Shown: piece after piece, positions 34,860 through 41,120 of the stretch
How positions within the stretch are numbered: position 1 is the first letter of the stretch
Layout: every line of letters begins with the position of its first letter
Source: Phycisphaerae bacterium
GTDB taxonomy: Bacteria > Planctomycetota > Phycisphaerae > Phycisphaerales > SM1A02
Length of the DNA: 43,879 bases
Reading direction: 5' to 3'
NCBI GenBank assembly: GCA_002709295.1
Contig: PAQL01000006.1
Location: 1-43,879, forward strand
Notes under the pieces: generated by a model
Database searches by the model: none
Seen by the model: the letters and a program-made list of their open reading frames with translations, nothing else
What the model was told of the DNA's origin: nothing
Program-made: the position numbers and the translations under genes

Positions 34860-35005
34860 TCCCGCAGGTCGATCGCTCTCTCGATCGACATCCCCCCGTC
34901 CACGCCGCCGAGATCCCGATGCTCGCCGCTTCGAAAGCGGTGGAGACCGATCGATCGAAGTCACTTCGCGGCGTCGACCAATCCCCTCAACGGTCGCCCT
35001 CGATC

Positions 35006-36454
35006 ATGGCCAGCAAGTCACGTCGTCGTCGTCGCAAGTCCGGCGGCTCCTCGTCGAATCCCAATGGCGCCAGTCCGACCTCGGTCACGCTCGCGCCCGG
35101 ATCGGTCCCCACGGATGAGCAGCTCGAGCAGGAGGCCGCCGAACTGGAGGCCGAACTGCAGGAGCGGTACGACCTCGCGAAGAAGGACGGCCTCGACCTC
35201 ACCAAGCTCCAGAAGATGAAGCTCGAGGAACTCCTCAAGCTCGCCAAGAAGGAGAAGGACGAGGACCCCGGAAACCTTCCGAAGCAGAAGCTCGTCTTCG
35301 AGATCCTCAGGAAGCGGGCCGAGAAGGCCGGCCTGATGATGGCCGAAGGCACCCTCGAGGTCATGGCCGAGGGGTTCGGCTTCCTTCGAAGTCCCGAATA
35401 CAGCTACCTCCCGTGCGCCGACGACGTGTACGTCAGCCCGAGTCAGATCCGTCGGTTCGCGCTGCGTCGAGGCCAGGTCGTGAAGGGTCTGATCCGTCCG
35501 CCGAAGGAGGCCGAGACCTACTTCGCCCTGCTCCGCGTCGAGGAGGTCAACGGCAACGATCCGAAGGTGCTTCAGACCCTGCCGACCTTCGAAAACCTCA
35601 CGCCGCTGCATCCGAACCAGCGGATCCAGCTGGAACTCCCCGAGGAACCGACCCGTCTCGAGCCCAGGATCATCGACATGGTCACGCCGCTCGGCTTCGG
35701 CCAGCGAGCCCTGATCGTCGCTCCGCCGCGTACCGGCAAGACCGTCATCCTCCAGCAGATCACCAATGCGATCGCGAAGAATCACGATGACGTCCACGTC
35801 ATCGTGCTTCTGATCGATGAACGTCCGGAGGAAGTGACCGACTTCAAGCGGAACACTCCCGAACAGGTCGAGGTGGTGGCGAGCACGTTCGACGAGGAGG
35901 CCTCCCGGCACATCGCGATCAGCGAGATCGTCATGGAGAAGGCGCGGCGGATGGTGGAGTTCGGTCAGGACGTGATCATCCTGCTCGACTCGATCACCAG
36001 GCTCGCCCGCGGCTACAACAACGCCATGACCGGATCCGGAAAGATCGGCTCCGGTGGTGTCGACAACGCGGCGCTGATCAAGCCGAAGAAGTTCTTCGGA
36101 TCGGCTCGGAACATCGAGGACGGCGGCTCCCTCACGATCATCGGAACCGCCCTCGTGGACACCGGCAGCCGGGCCGACGAGGTGATCTTCGAGGAGTTCA
36201 AGGGCACCGGCAACGCGGAGCTCCACCTCGATCGCAAGCTGGTCGAGAAGCGGGTCTATCCCGCGATCGACATCGCCGCTTCGGGCACCCGTCGCGAGGA
36301 ACTGCTCCTTGATCCTCAGGAGCATGAATTGATCACGCGATTGAGGAAGGTCGTCTCGGACATGAACGTGGTGGAGGCGATGGAGCTGCTTCGCTCCCGT
36401 CTGGCCAAGACCAAGAGCAATGGCGAGTTCCTGATGACCATGTCGATGGGATGA
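35006..36454 (+). CDS. rho: transcription termination factor Rho
   Basis: Hexameric RNA helicase that ends transcription. The 482-aa form (start 35006, [11 protein letters not shown]) has a basic N-terminal extension, a charged Lys/Glu helix region, the RNA-binding cold-shock-like domain ([30 protein letters not shown]), the Walker A motif APPRTGKT (239-246, Lys245), Walker [16 protein letters not shown] and the Q-loop/R-loop region [12 protein letters not shown] start 29 codons earlier (34919) is possible; neither has a clear ribosome-binding site. The extra N-terminal residues are common in high-GC phyla. Its stop overlaps an ATG of the next frame. Confidence 0.95.
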
Positions 36455-36570
36455 TCGGAGGATGGAACCGGACCCCGGAGTTCCGCGGACGGAACCGGGA
36501 CCCCCGGGCTTCCATGTCGGATTTCCGGCCTCAGGAGTCGGACGCAGAGCCCCAGCCGCGGAGAGCCAAA

Positions 36571-37494
36571 GTGCGATCGAAGACCTACCCCGTCGTGTTC
36601 CGCCGAGGAATGACCCTGACCGAGATCATGGCGGTCATCGGCATCATCGTCGTCCTGCTGGCGATTCTCCTGCCCGGACTGGCGACCGTCCGCCGGACCG
36701 GCGAGCAGACCACCAGTGAGAACAACCTTCGGCAGCTTTACACCTATCTGAAGTCGTACATGACGGACAACCGGGAGTTCGTGCCGCCCTCAAGCTTCGA
36801 CTACCGGGAGGCGACCTACCCGGGCACGGTGCGGACCAACAGCCCCCGATCGTCGCCGCCCAACAGCGGTCCCGTCGCGGGTGGCGTGTTCACCACCGGC
36901 GAGCCCCAGCACGTGGGCAGCTGGGCTGACATCCTCTGGACCTACAGCGACCAGGACGCCATCCTCGATGTCGCAGGCCCTCCGGGGATCGGATTCACGG
37001 GCTACAACTATCGCTACGACTCCCCGGACCGGTGGGTCTTCGATTCGATTCCGGAGTTCAAGACCGCGTTCCGAAGCACGGGTGTCAACACCAGGGCCGT
37101 CGAAGGCTCGGGGGCCACGCCGTTCGGAGACGGCACGGTCGCCGCCGAGAAGGGGCAGCCCGGTTACTTCGCCGCGAACGACTGGTTCGCGGTCGGAGGC
37201 TCCACGGGCGCCGGCTGGATCTCCGGTCCTCAGATCCGGTTTCCCGCCCGAGCCGTGTATCTGGTCGACTCGTATGCCGGTGAGACGATCGCGCCCAACG
37301 AGAATGGCTGGGGGAACCCGGGTGCGAACATCGACACCCAGGTCGACTTCCGCTACATCGGTGACAACGCCCTGTTCCTGACCCTCGACGGCGGGATCAA
37401 GGCCGAGCCGCTCTTCGACGGCATCCAGGCGGTCGAGGAACGGGGATACCGGATCCGGGATCTCGACAAGCGGGTCCAGTCCACCACGCCGTGA
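36571..37494 (+). CDS. prepilin-like secreted protein (type II secretion/DUF1559-like)
   Basis: A 307-aa protein starting at GTG 36571 with GGAG seven bases upstream, giving a 13-residue basic leader followed by the prepilin peptidase site and helix G-MTLTEIMAVIGIIVVLLAILLPGL. Phycisphaerae and other planctomycetes carry many such pseudopilin-like proteins. The body has Tyr/Gly/Asn-rich sequence and C-terminal hydrophobic strands (RAVYLVDSY, NALFLTLDGGIKA) as in H-X9-DG-type proteins, though the H-X9-DG form itself is not clear. Upstream in-frame ATGs at 36451 and 36514 would give unusually long leaders. Function unknown; a surface or secretion-associated role is an inference. Confidence 0.8.
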   Translation: MRSKTYPVVFRRGMTLTEIMAVIGIIVVLLAILLPGLATVRRTGEQTTSENNLRQLYTYLKSYMTDNREFVPPSSFDYREATYPGTVRTNSPRSSPPNSGPVAGGVFTTGEPQHVGSWADILWTYSDQDAILDVAGPPGIGFTGYNYRYDSPDRWVFDSIPEFKTAFRSTGVNTRAVEGSGATPFGDGTVAAEKGQPGYFAANDWFAVGGSTGAGWISGPQIRFPARAVYLVDSYAGETIAPNENGWGNPGANIDTQVDFRYIGDNALFLTLDGGIKAEPLFDGIQAVEERGYRIRDLDKRVQSTTP

Positions 37495-37725
37495 GGCTGG
37501 GGGGCACTCATGGCTATGCCGAGGGGGCAGGGTGATTTCATGCGGTTTCCCCCCTGCAGCACCCTCCGGACCTCAAGGTGCCTCAGACCCCCTGAACCCC
37601 CTTTTTTGATCAAAAACGGCGATTATTGCCTCGGACACGGTCTTCCGAGCTCTGGCAGACGGGGGTGAAGATACCTGGTCGGGGGTCCTGGACCGGTGTC
37701 AATTCTCATTGAGTGCATCGGTGGG
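37495..37725 (+). other. non-coding gap before the tRNA-Thr promoter
   Basis: No gene is seen. It contains G- and C-runs and the palindrome TTTTTGATCAAAAA (37603-37616), preceded by CCCCC tracts. I do not find a stable stem before the T-run, so it is not a confident terminator for the prepilin-like gene. Confidence 0.4.
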
Positions 37726-37753
37726 TTGCCTTCGGACGGGTAATCGCTACACT
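37726..37753 (+). promoter_or_regulatory. promoter of the tRNA-Thr/tuf transcription unit
   Basis: TTGCCT, a 16-base spacer and TACACT, each matching the sigma-70 consensus at four of six bases, located 96 bases before the tRNA. Predicted start near 37760. Confidence 0.6.
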
Positions 37754-37762
37754 CTTCGATCT

Positions 37763-37786
37763 CCGCTCCGATCCGGGGCGGTTTTT
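37763..37786 (+). terminator. promoter-proximal terminator-like hairpin
   Basis: CCGCTCC-GATCC-GGGGCGG (7 pairs including one G-U) followed by TTTTT. It lies just downstream of the predicted transcription start, so it is either an attenuator or the end of a transcript from upstream. Confidence 0.55.
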
Positions 37787-37789
37787 ATT

Positions 37790-37836
37790 CGGTTGGAGAC
37801 CGACCTGTCGGTCTCGGGGCTTCGGCCCGACAACCG
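37790..37836 (+). other. predicted three-way-junction RNA in the tRNA-Thr leader
   Basis: Outer stem CGGTTG/CAACCG (37790-37795 with 37831-37836) encloses an 8-bp hairpin GAGACCGA-CCTG-TCGGTCTC (37796-37815) and a UUCG tetraloop hairpin GGGC-TTCG-GCCC (37817-37828). The nested perfect pairing is seen directly; a function as maturation or regulatory element is an inference. Confidence 0.5.
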
Positions 37837-37848
37837 CGTTCGCCACCT

Positions 37849-37920
37849 GCCACCGTAGCTCAGTGGTAGAGCACACCCTTGGTAAGGGTGAGGTCACGGG
37901 TTCAAGTCCCGTCGGTGGCT
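37849..37920 (+). tRNA. tRNA-Thr (anticodon GGT)
   Basis: Acceptor stem GCCACCG pairs with CGGTGGC, the anticodon stem is CACCC/GGGTG around TTGGTAA, and the T-arm carries GTTCAAGTCC. The 3' CCA is not encoded. It lies upstream of tuf, as in many bacteria where tRNA-Thr precedes tufB. Confidence 0.97.
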
Positions 37921-38085: not shown

Positions 38086-39297
38086 ATGGCTAAGGAAGTC
38101 TTCCAAAGGACCAAGCCGCACGTGAACGTCGGCACCATCGGTCACGTCGACCACGGCAAGACCACGCTCACCGCGGCCATCACCACCGTGCAGGGTGCCA
38201 AGGGCCTCGCGAAGCAGATCGCCTATGACGAGGTGGCCAAGGCCTCCGAGTCGGAAGGTCGACGCGACCCCACCAAGATCCTCACGATCGCCACCAGTCA
38301 CGTCGAGTACGAGTCGCCCAACCGGCACTACGCTCACGTCGACTGCCCCGGCCACGCCGACTACGTGAAGAACATGATCACCGGTGCCGCCCAGATGGAC
38401 GGCGCCATCCTGGTGTGCTCGGCCTCCGACGGCCCGATGCCCCAGACCCGTGAGCACATTCTCCTGGCTCGCCAGGTGGGTGTTCCGAAGATCGTGGTCT
38501 TCCTCAACAAGTGCGACCTCGTCGATGACGAGGAGCTGCTCGACCTCATCGAACTCGAGGTCCGTGAGCTTCTCAACAAGTACGACTTCCCCGGCGACGA
38601 CACCCCGGTCATCCGTGGTGCCGCCTTCCCGGCCCTTCAGAACCCGACCGACGAGGCTGCCAACGCCTGCATCGGCGAGCTTCTGGAGCAGCTCGACACC
38701 TACATCGAGGAGCCGGAGCGGGAGACCGACAAGCCGTTCCTGATGTCGATCGAGGACGTCTTCTCGATCAAGGGCCGCGGTACCGTCGCGACCGGCCGTA
38801 TCGAGCGAGGCATCATCAAGGTCGGTGACGAGGCCGAGATCGTCGGCCTCGGTGCCGAGGACATGAAGACGACCATCACCGGTGTGGAGATGTTCCAGAA
38901 GACCCTCGATGAAGGCCAGGCCGGCGACAACGTCGGTTGCCTCCTTCGTGGCGTCGAGAAGGACGACATCCAGCGAGGCCAGGTCCTCTGCAAGCCCGGT
39001 TCGATCAAGCCCCACAAGAAGTTCCAGGGTCAGGTCTACGTGCTGACCAAGGAAGAGGGCGGTCGGCACACCCCGTTCTTCTCCGGTTACAAGCCTCAGT
39101 TCTACTTCCGCACGACGGACATCACCGGCAAGCTCACCCTTCTCGGCGGTGCCGAGATGTGCATGCCCGGCGACAACGTCGAGCTCGAAGTCGACCTCGA
39201 GGACAAGGGCGTGGCGATGGAGGAAGGCGTTCGGTTCGCGGTCCGCGAAGGCGGCCGTACCGTCGGCTCCGGCGTCGTCACCAAGATCATCGAGTAG
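38086..39297 (+). CDS. tuf: elongation factor Tu
   Basis: GTPase that delivers aminoacyl-tRNA to the ribosome. The 403-aa protein has the P-loop GHVDHGKT (19-26), DCPGH (86-90), NKCD (141-144) and the three-domain layout ending in [13 protein letters not shown] 38086 is preferred over a TTG six bases upstream; GGAGAAG precedes it. The switch I region (about 50-70) reads [22 protein letters not shown] instead of the usual EEKARGITINTSHVEY: the Mg-binding Thr is kept, but the RG and Asn positions differ. I recall a similar switch I in other planctomycete EF-Tu proteins, unchecked here. Followed by rpmG after a hairpin. Confidence 0.98.
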
Positions 39298-39311: not shown

Positions 39312-39344
39312 CGCGACCCGGGATCCCATGGATCCCGGGTCGCG
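39312..39344 (+). terminator. hairpin between tuf and rpmG
   Basis: A 15-bp perfect stem (39312-39326 with 39330-39344) closed by a 3-base loop, 15 bases after the tuf stop. Only two T follow, so it may partially terminate or stabilise tuf mRNA, giving more EF-Tu than the downstream genes. Confidence 0.6.
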
Positions 39345-39397: not shown

Positions 39398-39574
39398 ATG
39401 GCCAAGAAGATGGATCGCGAATTCGTGTGGCTCGTGTGCACCGAGACCGGTGACATGAACTACCGCACCAACATCCGCGTCAAGGGCGGCATCGATGAGA
39501 AGGTCAAGGAGGGCTTCATGAAGTACTCGCCTTCCCTGAGGAAGCACACGCTTCACAAGATCAAGCGCAAGTGA
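39398..39574 (+). CDS. rpmG: 50S ribosomal protein L33
   Basis: Small large-subunit ribosomal protein, 58 aa. The sequence MAKKMDREFVWLVCTETGD starts with the family MAKK-like N-terminus and ends in KYSPSLRKHTLHKIKRK, matching the L33 RKHTLHKE-type end. Zinc-binding L33 has four Cys; here only one remains (Cys14), so this is a C-minus-type protein. AAGGA lies about ten bases before the ATG. Its position between tuf and tRNA-Trp/secE agrees with the usual rpmG-secE-nusG neighbourhood. Confidence 0.93.
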   Translation: MAKKMDREFVWLVCTETGDMNYRTNIRVKGGIDEKVKEGFMKYSPSLRKHTLHKIKRK

Positions 39575-39611: not shown

Positions 39612-39684
<73 letters not shown>

Positions 39685-39731: not shown

Positions 39732-40139
39732 ATGTCGACCGCCATCTACAAGAAGGGTCAGGGATTCTGGACCCGACAGATGTCGACCGTTGCCGCAGCC
39801 GTTCTGACGCTGCTGGGCGCCATCTGGATCTCCGATCAGTTCCGTGGTGCGGAATGGTTCAACCTTCAGCCCATCTACTGGCGGGCGATCGTCGGTGTGA
39901 TCTGGTGCGGGGTGTTCGGCCTTCTGATCTATTCGTTCATCTGGGTCAAGCCGCGCTCGGTCGACTTCCTGGTGGCGACCGAGACCGAGATGAAGAAGGT
40001 CAACTGGTCCACCAGGCATGAGATCGTCGGCTCCACCGTCGTGGTGATCCTGCTCGCGGCGGGCATCGCCGGGTTCTGCCGGATCTTCGACTACGTGTTC
40101 CTCCTGCTGTTCAGTTCCATCAAGGTCCTGGACGCCTGA
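39732..40139 (+). CDS. secE: preprotein translocase subunit SecE
   Basis: Inner-membrane clamp of SecY in the Sec translocon. The 135-aa protein has three hydrophobic segments (about 20-40, 47-67, 103-128), like the long E. coli-type SecE, and the conserved amphipathic motif ETEMKKVNWSTRHEIVGSTVVVI. The ATG at 39732 was chosen because the in-frame extension upstream runs through the tRNA-Trp gene. Followed by nusG, as in nearly all bacteria. Confidence 0.93.
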   Translation: MSTAIYKKGQGFWTRQMSTVAAAVLTLLGAIWISDQFRGAEWFNLQPIYWRAIVGVIWCGVFGLLIYSFIWVKPRSVDFLVATETEMKKVNWSTRHEIVGSTVVVILLAAGIAGFCRIFDYVFLLLFSSIKVLDA

Positions 40140-40226: not shown

Positions 40227-41120
40227 ATGAGCATGTCCGACGAACAACCGATTGGTGAGGAAGCATCCGAGGCCAGGGCCCCCGAGCCTTCGGAGTCCAC
40301 CCCGACGGAGTCGACCCCGGCTCCTGAGGATTCCGAGGAGCGGGCTCCCGAAGATCTCGACCCCACCACGGAAGCCTCTCCCAAGAAGCGTCTGGCCTCC
40401 GGCCGGGCGGCCGCCTCGGCGGTGTCCGCCGGGCAGTCGCTGGGCGACGTCGGCGGTGTGGCGACCCACCGGATCGTCAGTGAGGATCCGAAGGACGGTT
40501 CCGGCGGTGGATCGGACGCGGCCGAGGGCCAGTTCGACCCGGCCGCCGACATGCCGATGTATCGACCCGGTTTCGACTGGTTCGTGCTCCGCGTGGCGAG
40601 CAACAAGGAATCGAGCGTTCGAGAGACCCTGCTCCGAAAGGTCCAGATCGAGGGCATGGAGCACATGGTCGGTCGAATCATGGTGCCCACCGAGAAGACC
40701 CAGTCGATCAAGGCGGGCGCTCGGCGAGTCACCGAGACCAAGCTGTATCCCGGATACGTCTTCGTCGAGATGTCGCTGGAGAGCGACGGCCGGATCCCCC
40801 AGGATGTCTTCTTCCTGATCAAGGAGACCACCGGTGTCGGCGACTTCGTGGGCACGGCGGGGCGACCGACGCCCATGGCGACGCACGAAGTCGAGAAGAT
40901 GCTCTTCGACTCGAGGAAGCCCGACGAGACTCCGCAGGTCAAGATGGAGTTCGTCTCGGGCGACGCGGTCATCATCAAGGAAGGTCCTTTCGAGAACTAC
41001 GAGGGAACGGTGGACGAGGTCATGCCCGAGAAGGGTCTGGTCCGCGTTCTGGTGACGATCTTCGGTCGCCAGGCTCCCGTCGAGCTGGAGTACTGGCAGA
41101 TCGCCAAGGCCGAGGAGTAG
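40227..41120 (+). CDS. nusG: transcription elongation/antitermination factor NusG, N-terminally extended
   Basis: Binds RNA polymerase and couples it to Rho or ribosomes. The 297-aa protein has a disordered Glu/Pro/Ser/Thr-rich extension (about 1-115), the NGN domain (about 116-225; DWFVLRVASNKESSVRETL, TETKLYPGYVFVEM) and a KOW domain (about 240-275; FVSGDAVIIKEGPFENYEGTV). Usual NusG is about 180 aa, so the extension accounts for the excess. GAGG precedes the ATG by seven bases. After nusG the expected rplK is absent and a hairpin follows. Confidence 0.96.
   Translation: MSMSDEQPIGEEASEARAPEPSESTPTESTPAPEDSEERAPEDLDPTTEASPKKRLASGRAAASAVSAGQSLGDVGGVATHRIVSEDPKDGSGGGSDAAEGQFDPAADMPMYRPGFDWFVLRVASNKESSVRETLLRKVQIEGMEHMVGRIMVPTEKTQSIKAGARRVTETKLYPGYVFVEMSLESDGRIPQDVFFLIKETTGVGDFVGTAGRPTPMATHEVEKMLFDSRKPDETPQVKMEFVSGDAVIIKEGPFENYEGTVDEVMPEKGLVRVLVTIFGRQAPVELEYWQIAKAEE

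Follow-up and report, generated by a model that had tools for sequence, protein, structure and literature searches.

A terminator-like hairpin at the predicted start of the tRNA-Thr-tuf operon, conserved as RNA within a family of Phycisphaerales

The tRNA-Thr-tuf locus and its leader

The window (the whole stretch of 43,879 nt of contig PAQL01000006.1 that was analyzed, from the Phycisphaerae bacterium assembly GCA_002709295.1) codes on its forward strand for tRNA-Thr(GGT) (37849 to 37920), the elongation factor EF-Tu (tuf, 38086 to 39297; Pfam GTP_EFTU together with domains 2 and 3), ribosomal protein L33 (rpmG, 39398 to 39574; PF00471), tRNA-Trp(CCA) (39612 to 39684), SecE (39732 to 40139; PF00584), and NusG (40227 to 41120; PF02357 and KOW). 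Both tRNAs reach the Rfam gathering score. From their order and common strand, we infer that these genes form a single co-transcribed operon. tRNA-Thr(GGT) also lies directly before tuf in the tRNA-tufB operon of Escherichia coli, and the order tRNA-Thr-tuf-tRNA-Trp-secE-nusG is that of the PVC bacteria. Among 12 named loci, 10 have tRNA-Thr(GGT) before tuf and tRNA-Trp after it, and two (L037 and L044) are without tRNA. The NusG of the window has 297 amino acids, with an N-terminal extension of ~110 residues and a Pfam NusG match that starts at residue 117.

The leader of this operon sits between tRNA-Thr(GGT) and a prepilin-like gene located downstream of rho. Both upstream genes are contained in 34919 to 37494 and are a recurrent upstream neighbor of the tuf operon in the family of the window. 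The gene next to the leader, which we take to be prepilin-like from its N-terminal motif, gave no Pfam match. The spacer upstream of the putative operon promoter also contains a T-rich palindrome, TTTTTTGATCAAAAA, at 37602 to 37616.

The putative promoter consists of a -35-like box, TTGCCT (37726 to 37731; letters and coordinates checked), and a -10-like box, TACACT (37748 to 37753), 16 nt apart. Nine nucleotides further lies the stem CCGCTCCG-ATC-CGGGGCGG (37763 to 37781), followed by a run of five T (37782 to 37786). By the usual spacing between a sigma-70 -10 box and the start, which is well established, transcription would probably begin at 37759 to 37761, and from a start placed in this way the stem would begin between about +1 and +6. 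A promoter scan of the window called no promoter at 37726 to 37753: its threshold was 9 of 12 consensus bases, and the two hexamers reach 8. At least 3 of the 6 bases of TTGACA are present at the -35-like position in 81 of 82 relatives, which supports the box weakly, as several spacings were tried and the best of five was taken. The TA...T of the -10-like box is invariant in alignment A1, whose rows were chosen for having such a box. TACACT boxes were also found at other sites of the same genome with a model that favors them, one of them adjoining, by eye, a tRNA-like sequence.

The two arms of the hairpin (37763 to 37770 and 37774 to 37781) enclose the loop ATC, and the GC-rich stem with its U run gives the site the appearance of an intrinsic (Rho-independent) terminator. 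In the window, no other terminator-like site separates the co-oriented upstream gene from the tRNA. The preliminary description of this DNA had located the hairpin, the T run, and a three-way junction correctly in letters and coordinates; its remark that all pairings are exact was right about which bases pair, but one pair of the terminator stem is a U.G wobble. Single-sequence folds give z scores of -1.9 to -2.8, with 3 to 6 of 200 shuffles equally good, which is a modest gain over shuffles. When positions 37726 to 37848 were compared with Rfam 15, no family reached its gathering score, in agreement with the earlier statement that no standard RNA family was known with this layout, and in the whole window only the two tRNAs did so. 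Overlaps below threshold, among them scr5239 and, on the opposite strand, asX2, are probably chance matches.

Conservation within the family and occurrence elsewhere

Named relatives place the family of the window (labeled f1) in the order Phycisphaerales. Searches for EF-Tu detected tuf in 58 of 61 near relatives and, across the order, in 277 of 301 genomes. Leaders were taken from 88 family loci, among the matches listed, together with samples of families f2 to f6. Usable leaders with tRNA-Thr were obtained from 85 of the 88 loci; L004 and L141 were uncounted as they lie at contig ends, and L130, with an N stretch in its tRNA, was recovered as L258, which carries the element. Named records with the element include Phycisphaerales bacterium DLM2.Bin64 and Planctomycetes bacterium TMED75, the latter placed by NCBI in unclassified Planctomycetota.

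We scanned these leaders with a detector that requires TAnnnT, a gap of 5 to 12 nt, and a perfect GC stem of 6 bp or more, with or without a T-rich tail. Without the tail, the layout is present in all 85 leaders, from 38 genera, compared to 1/85 reverse complements and 3 to 7/85 in each of five shuffles. With the tail, it is present in 79/85 leaders (36 genera), in 0/85 reverse complements, and in 0/425 shuffles, which bears out the terminator-like hairpin with TTTTT that had been described after the predicted start. In six leaders, from genera g26 and g23, the stem is retained but TTGT takes the place of the T run; another run of the detector missed eight leaders, six with TTGT tails and two (L192 and L194) with TTTATT. 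Measurements were made on 82 rows, omitting L180, L192, and L194 (no box or stem pick). The gap between the -10-like box and the stem is 6 to 12 nt in all of them, stems have 6 to 10 bp and loops 3 to 10 nt, 66 have a T run of exactly five, and a d'Aubenton-Carafa-type terminator score is above 0 in 74. The distance from the end of the T run to the tRNA varies from 8 to 283 nt; in 30 of the 82 relatives (5 with a TTGT tail) it is 8 to 12 nt, a gap too short to hold a promoter, so that there the operon's own RNA must carry the hairpin.

The stem shows abundant covariation. An unfitted MAFFT alignment (A2) was limited to 47 of the 82 rows, picked for clean alignment, because the first alignment had misplaced the 5' arm in several others. 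In A2, 97.6% of stem cells are paired and 4 of 7 pairs show double changes, with 35 double-change cells compared to 4.0 in shuffles. A covariance model built from these 47 sequences (R1) finds 79/86 family loci at an E value of 0.01 or lower (missed were L015, L118, L136, L150, L160, L161, and L163). In A3, an alignment in which 79 sequences were fitted to the model, which biases it toward the model's structure, 98.9% of stem cells are paired, with 53 double-change cells compared to 6.1 in shuffles; none of 500 shuffles was as good, and slid structures pair only 39 to 58% of cells. The compensatory changes in relatives that the preliminary description had put forward as a test are thus present for the terminator hairpin, 6 of its 7 pairs having changed on both sides in A3. 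Over the 82 rows, the outer six pairs comprise 472 Watson-Crick pairs, 20 G.U, and no A.C, and a scan of seven pairs, which is cruder because it runs into the loop of the 6-bp stems, gave 29 G.U, 9 A.C, and 17 other mispairs. As letter changes are compensated and G.U occurs without A.C in the outer pairs, the hairpin varies as expected for RNA and not for a DNA palindrome. Judging from this comparison of leaders, the terminator-like hairpin with T5 is real and selected, and it is a family-wide element at the RNA level.

Outside the tuf leaders, the element is rare. R1 gives one strong match in the window's own genome (54 bits), the next being at an E value of ~1, and the layout occurs twice on both strands of 442 kb of this genome, the second occurrence reading as coding sequence. 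The best R1 match lies below 1e-3 in 47 of 61 family genomes, and G032 alone has two such matches, which are the same sequence at two contig ends. R1 found nothing below an E value of 1 in 66 nonfamily loci. With the tail required, the strict detector fires in 3 of 61 usable nonfamily leaders: L223 (f2), which resembles the family element and has the tail TTGTTG; L114 (f5), which has a promoter, a start-site stem, and the weak T-rich tail TTTAGT; and L139 (f3). In family f2, the start-site stem is above the 95th percentile of shuffles in 11/25 leaders, mostly without a U run. Nor is a T-rich tail a general habit of these genomes, since the strict detector found a hairpin with T4 in 5/29 tmRNA 3' flanks of the window's family and a hairpin with a tail in 0/30 rpmF leaders (8/30 when no tail was required; 30 of the 55 leaders found were tested). 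The rpmF result also led us to discard a general start-site habit.

Among 199 genomes of the phylum that were searched, two others give weak matches. In two other genomes of the family, weak R1 matches show the same promoter-hairpin-T run layout once more: L347 (G304:C180), preceding rpmF-plsX, and L348 (G228:C8), preceding a dehydrogenase-like gene (gene names assigned by eye); from their sequence, these extra sites of G304 and G228 would speak against full specificity for the tuf leader. Leaders of families f4, f5, and f6 (e.g., L019, L025, L201, and L208) show, by eye, a hairpin just upstream of a promoter whose -35-like box (TTGTTT or TTGTCA) is in the place of a U run. On reading these leaders by eye, we set them aside as examples of the same element, because TTGTTT/TTGTCA is spaced as the -35 box of a further promoter and the hairpin lies upstream of the corresponding start.

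Possible function of the start-site hairpin

Our best reading, in which we have moderate confidence, is that the hairpin and U run, close to the promoter, work as an intrinsic terminator or a hairpin pause and determine how much transcription enters tRNA-Thr-tuf-rpmG-tRNA-Trp-secE-nusG. The arrangement at the start site probably limits or gates the output of the operon, and control of EF-Tu, SecE, and NusG supply, as proposed in the preliminary description, fits the element. A GC hairpin of 6 to 10 bp plus ~5 U would stand at, or a few bases from, the 5' end of the operon RNA, and RNA polymerase would reach an intrinsic-terminator-like site at an RNA length of ~30 nt. Some polymerases would pause there or release a tiny RNA, others would continue into the operon, and the hairpin would thereby set the fraction that enters it. 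Because the stem begins about at the RNA start, a leader peptide, an aptamer, or an upstream antiterminator is not expected, and with the start placed as above, the 6 to 12 nt between box and stem in 82/82 rows hold neither a sensor nor a leader peptide upstream of the terminator. Nor could the downstream RNA be the switch, as it has yet to be made when the polymerase arrives at the T run. If the site is a terminator or pause, the decision would fall to the polymerase and its bound factors, since there is no room for an upstream RNA switch; candidates are NusA, NusG, GreA, or ppGpp.

Pairing between the 5' region and the downstream tail was compared with that obtained with swapped tails (mean 13.07 vs. 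12.55), and 3 of 200 swaps reached the observed value. Genus g56 contributes many of the strongest cases, and the polymerase would already be past the T run before such a pairing could form; we set aside an antiterminator conserved with the downstream tail, as the pairing looks genus level only. The five T are followed by C or A, which would make for a short U run and counts against the terminator reading. As the TTGT leaders (6/85) and most f2 stems are without a U run, the stem may have another job, and a further role such as protection of the 5' end may exist.

Several other explanations have to be weighed against termination or pausing. The hairpin and U run could instead be a barrier that stops transcripts arriving from the upstream gene, polymerases from the operon promoter passing it because their elongation has only just begun or because they initiate inside the 5' arm. 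The setting suits such a barrier: a co-oriented prepilin-like gene lies upstream in 81/85 family leaders (69 at first and 12 more with longer stretches), the window has no other terminator-like site between this gene and the tRNA, and such sites are rare (65 by the strict detector on both strands of 442 kb of the same genome). Against a barrier, the distance to the -10-like box is nearly fixed (6 to 12 nt), compared to 47 to 567 nt to the upstream stop codon, and no part of the stem precedes the expected start in most leaders, which would place the hairpin on the operon's own RNA. In the other leaders, the upstream neighbor is a co-oriented frame in G012 and divergent in G011 and G007, and G032 is cut. 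Both genomes with divergent neighbors (one a Sulfotransfer_2 protein just above the Pfam cut-off, the other a protein below that of Wzy_C) keep the hairpin and the T run, two cases that argue against a barrier as the sole function. We regard the barrier, including the passage of operon-promoter polymerases that it presupposes, as unlikely. A hairpin at the 5' terminus that shields the nascent pre-tRNA/mRNA from end-dependent decay, with the U run as a spacer or nuclease site, seems to us a little less likely still. The stem does begin only a few bases from the expected 5' end, and it persists without the T run in the six TTGT leaders and in part of those of f2, but protection leaves a run of exactly five T in 66/82 relatives unexplained. 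tRNAs are excised from their transcripts during processing, so the tuf message would lose the protected end in any case.

Much less probable is a DNA operator, in which a repressor would bind a palindrome spanning the start site. The position of the stem overlaps the start, but the letters of the stem vary with compensation, the loops range from 3 to 10 nt, and the wobble is strand specific (20 G.U and no A.C in the outer six pairs, 29 and 9 in the cruder scan); we rejected the operator on the compensated changes and the G.U/A.C asymmetry. The predicted three-way junction immediately downstream (37790 to 37836) is an equally remote candidate for a regulatory RNA or, as the preliminary description suggested, a guide of tRNA processing. 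It consists of an outer stem (CGGTTG, 37790 to 37795, with CAACCG, 37831 to 37836), an 8-bp hairpin with the loop CCTG (37796 to 37815), and GGGC-UUCG-GCCC (37817 to 37828), and its fold has a z score of -2.8, with 3/200 shuffles as stable. Against this, the junction was not seen in the folds of five relatives (L005, of the same genus, and L006, L142, L143, and L144); the four genomes of genus g34 have, by eye, a hairpin at a similar place without the outer stem. We therefore rejected it as a conserved RNA, and by this folding it is so far a feature of the window's genome alone, probably without a conserved function. Guidance of tRNA processing is disfavored because the distance between T run and tRNA varies so widely (8 to 283 nt).

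We know of no start-site terminator in the tRNA-tufB operon of E. coli or in the tuf operons of PVC bacteria. Open-access full-text literature, judged by title and the start of the abstract and not covering subscription papers, yielded no planctomycete tuf-operon start-site terminator. For the terminator or pause reading, the closest precedent that we found is GraL, in the E. coli greA leader, where the passages on this RNA in PMC6829880 describe 19 nt before the terminator and about two-thirds of transcripts terminated. The same passages state that terminators about 20 nt from the start work and can be partial, with release of a tiny RNA, and report measured termination and GreA-dependent feedback (PMC6829880). 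In both systems, a hairpin of the terminator type occupies the first few tens of nucleotides of the RNA for a core expression factor, which for the tuf leader depends on the start predicted from the -10-like box. Unlike GraL as described there, the stem of the tuf leaders lies 6 to 12 nt after a -10-like box, belongs to a tRNA-Thr-tuf-secE-nusG operon, and is known from sequence alone. A promoter-proximal terminator or pause of the GraL type is the most likely way in which the element works. Antiterminator structures have been reported for greA leaders (PMC2965389), and the tuf leaders differ in that no conserved antiterminator was found. The same source describes rpsL-leader attenuators of operons with fusA-tufA (PMC2965389). 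These too are premature terminators ahead of an operon encoding EF-Tu, in a different operon and with antiterminators proposed there. The word stem "planctomyc" is absent from the main text of PMC2965389.

Regulation by an elongation factor of its own operon at a leader terminator is documented for Bacillus subtilis nusA, which is autoregulated through NusA-stimulated termination (PMC12288461); the likeness here is the presence of nusG in the operon. The pause motif of B. subtilis NusG, TTNTTT, is unmatched in most tuf leaders, as the sixth base of the tail is T in 5/82, and we set it aside; residues N81 and T82 of this NusG are named as critical in the same review (PMC12288461).

The terminator or pause reading can be extended to a sensor-free attenuator at the start of the EF-Tu operon in at least 36 genera of the family, with read-through set by polymerase-bound factors and feedback by NusG. 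In this full form we think it doubtful. Feedback is conceivable since nusG is inside the operon; if it does occur, NusG at the operon end would close a loop coupling transcription and translation capacity. Few bacterial proteins are as abundant as EF-Tu, yet beyond a few models little is known about how its operon is controlled. A conserved signal resembling a stop in the first 30 nt, without room for an RNA sensor, would be a simple control by the polymerase itself and would tell how the mostly uncultured planctomycetes of this family tune their translation capacity.

Hairpins without a U run

The operon of the window contains a second hairpin, a perfect 15-bp stem that directly follows the tuf stop codon (39312 to 39344) and lacks a T run. 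Stems of at least 12 bp occur within 80 nt after tuf in 22/32 family loci, compared to 0 to 1/32 in five shuffles, and they mostly differ in letters among loci. A possible role of the hairpin of the window is to stabilize the tuf mRNA or to reduce the transcription that continues into rpmG-secE-nusG. In the tmRNA 3' flanks of the family (L295 to L324), long perfect GC hairpins that lack a U run are also frequent, a strong hairpin being present in 18/29. As a hairpin with T4 was found in only 5/29 of the same flanks, hairpins without a U run may serve as terminators in this family. In L314, the flank shows by eye a further hairpin with a T-rich stretch, in addition to those 5/29 of the strict detector.
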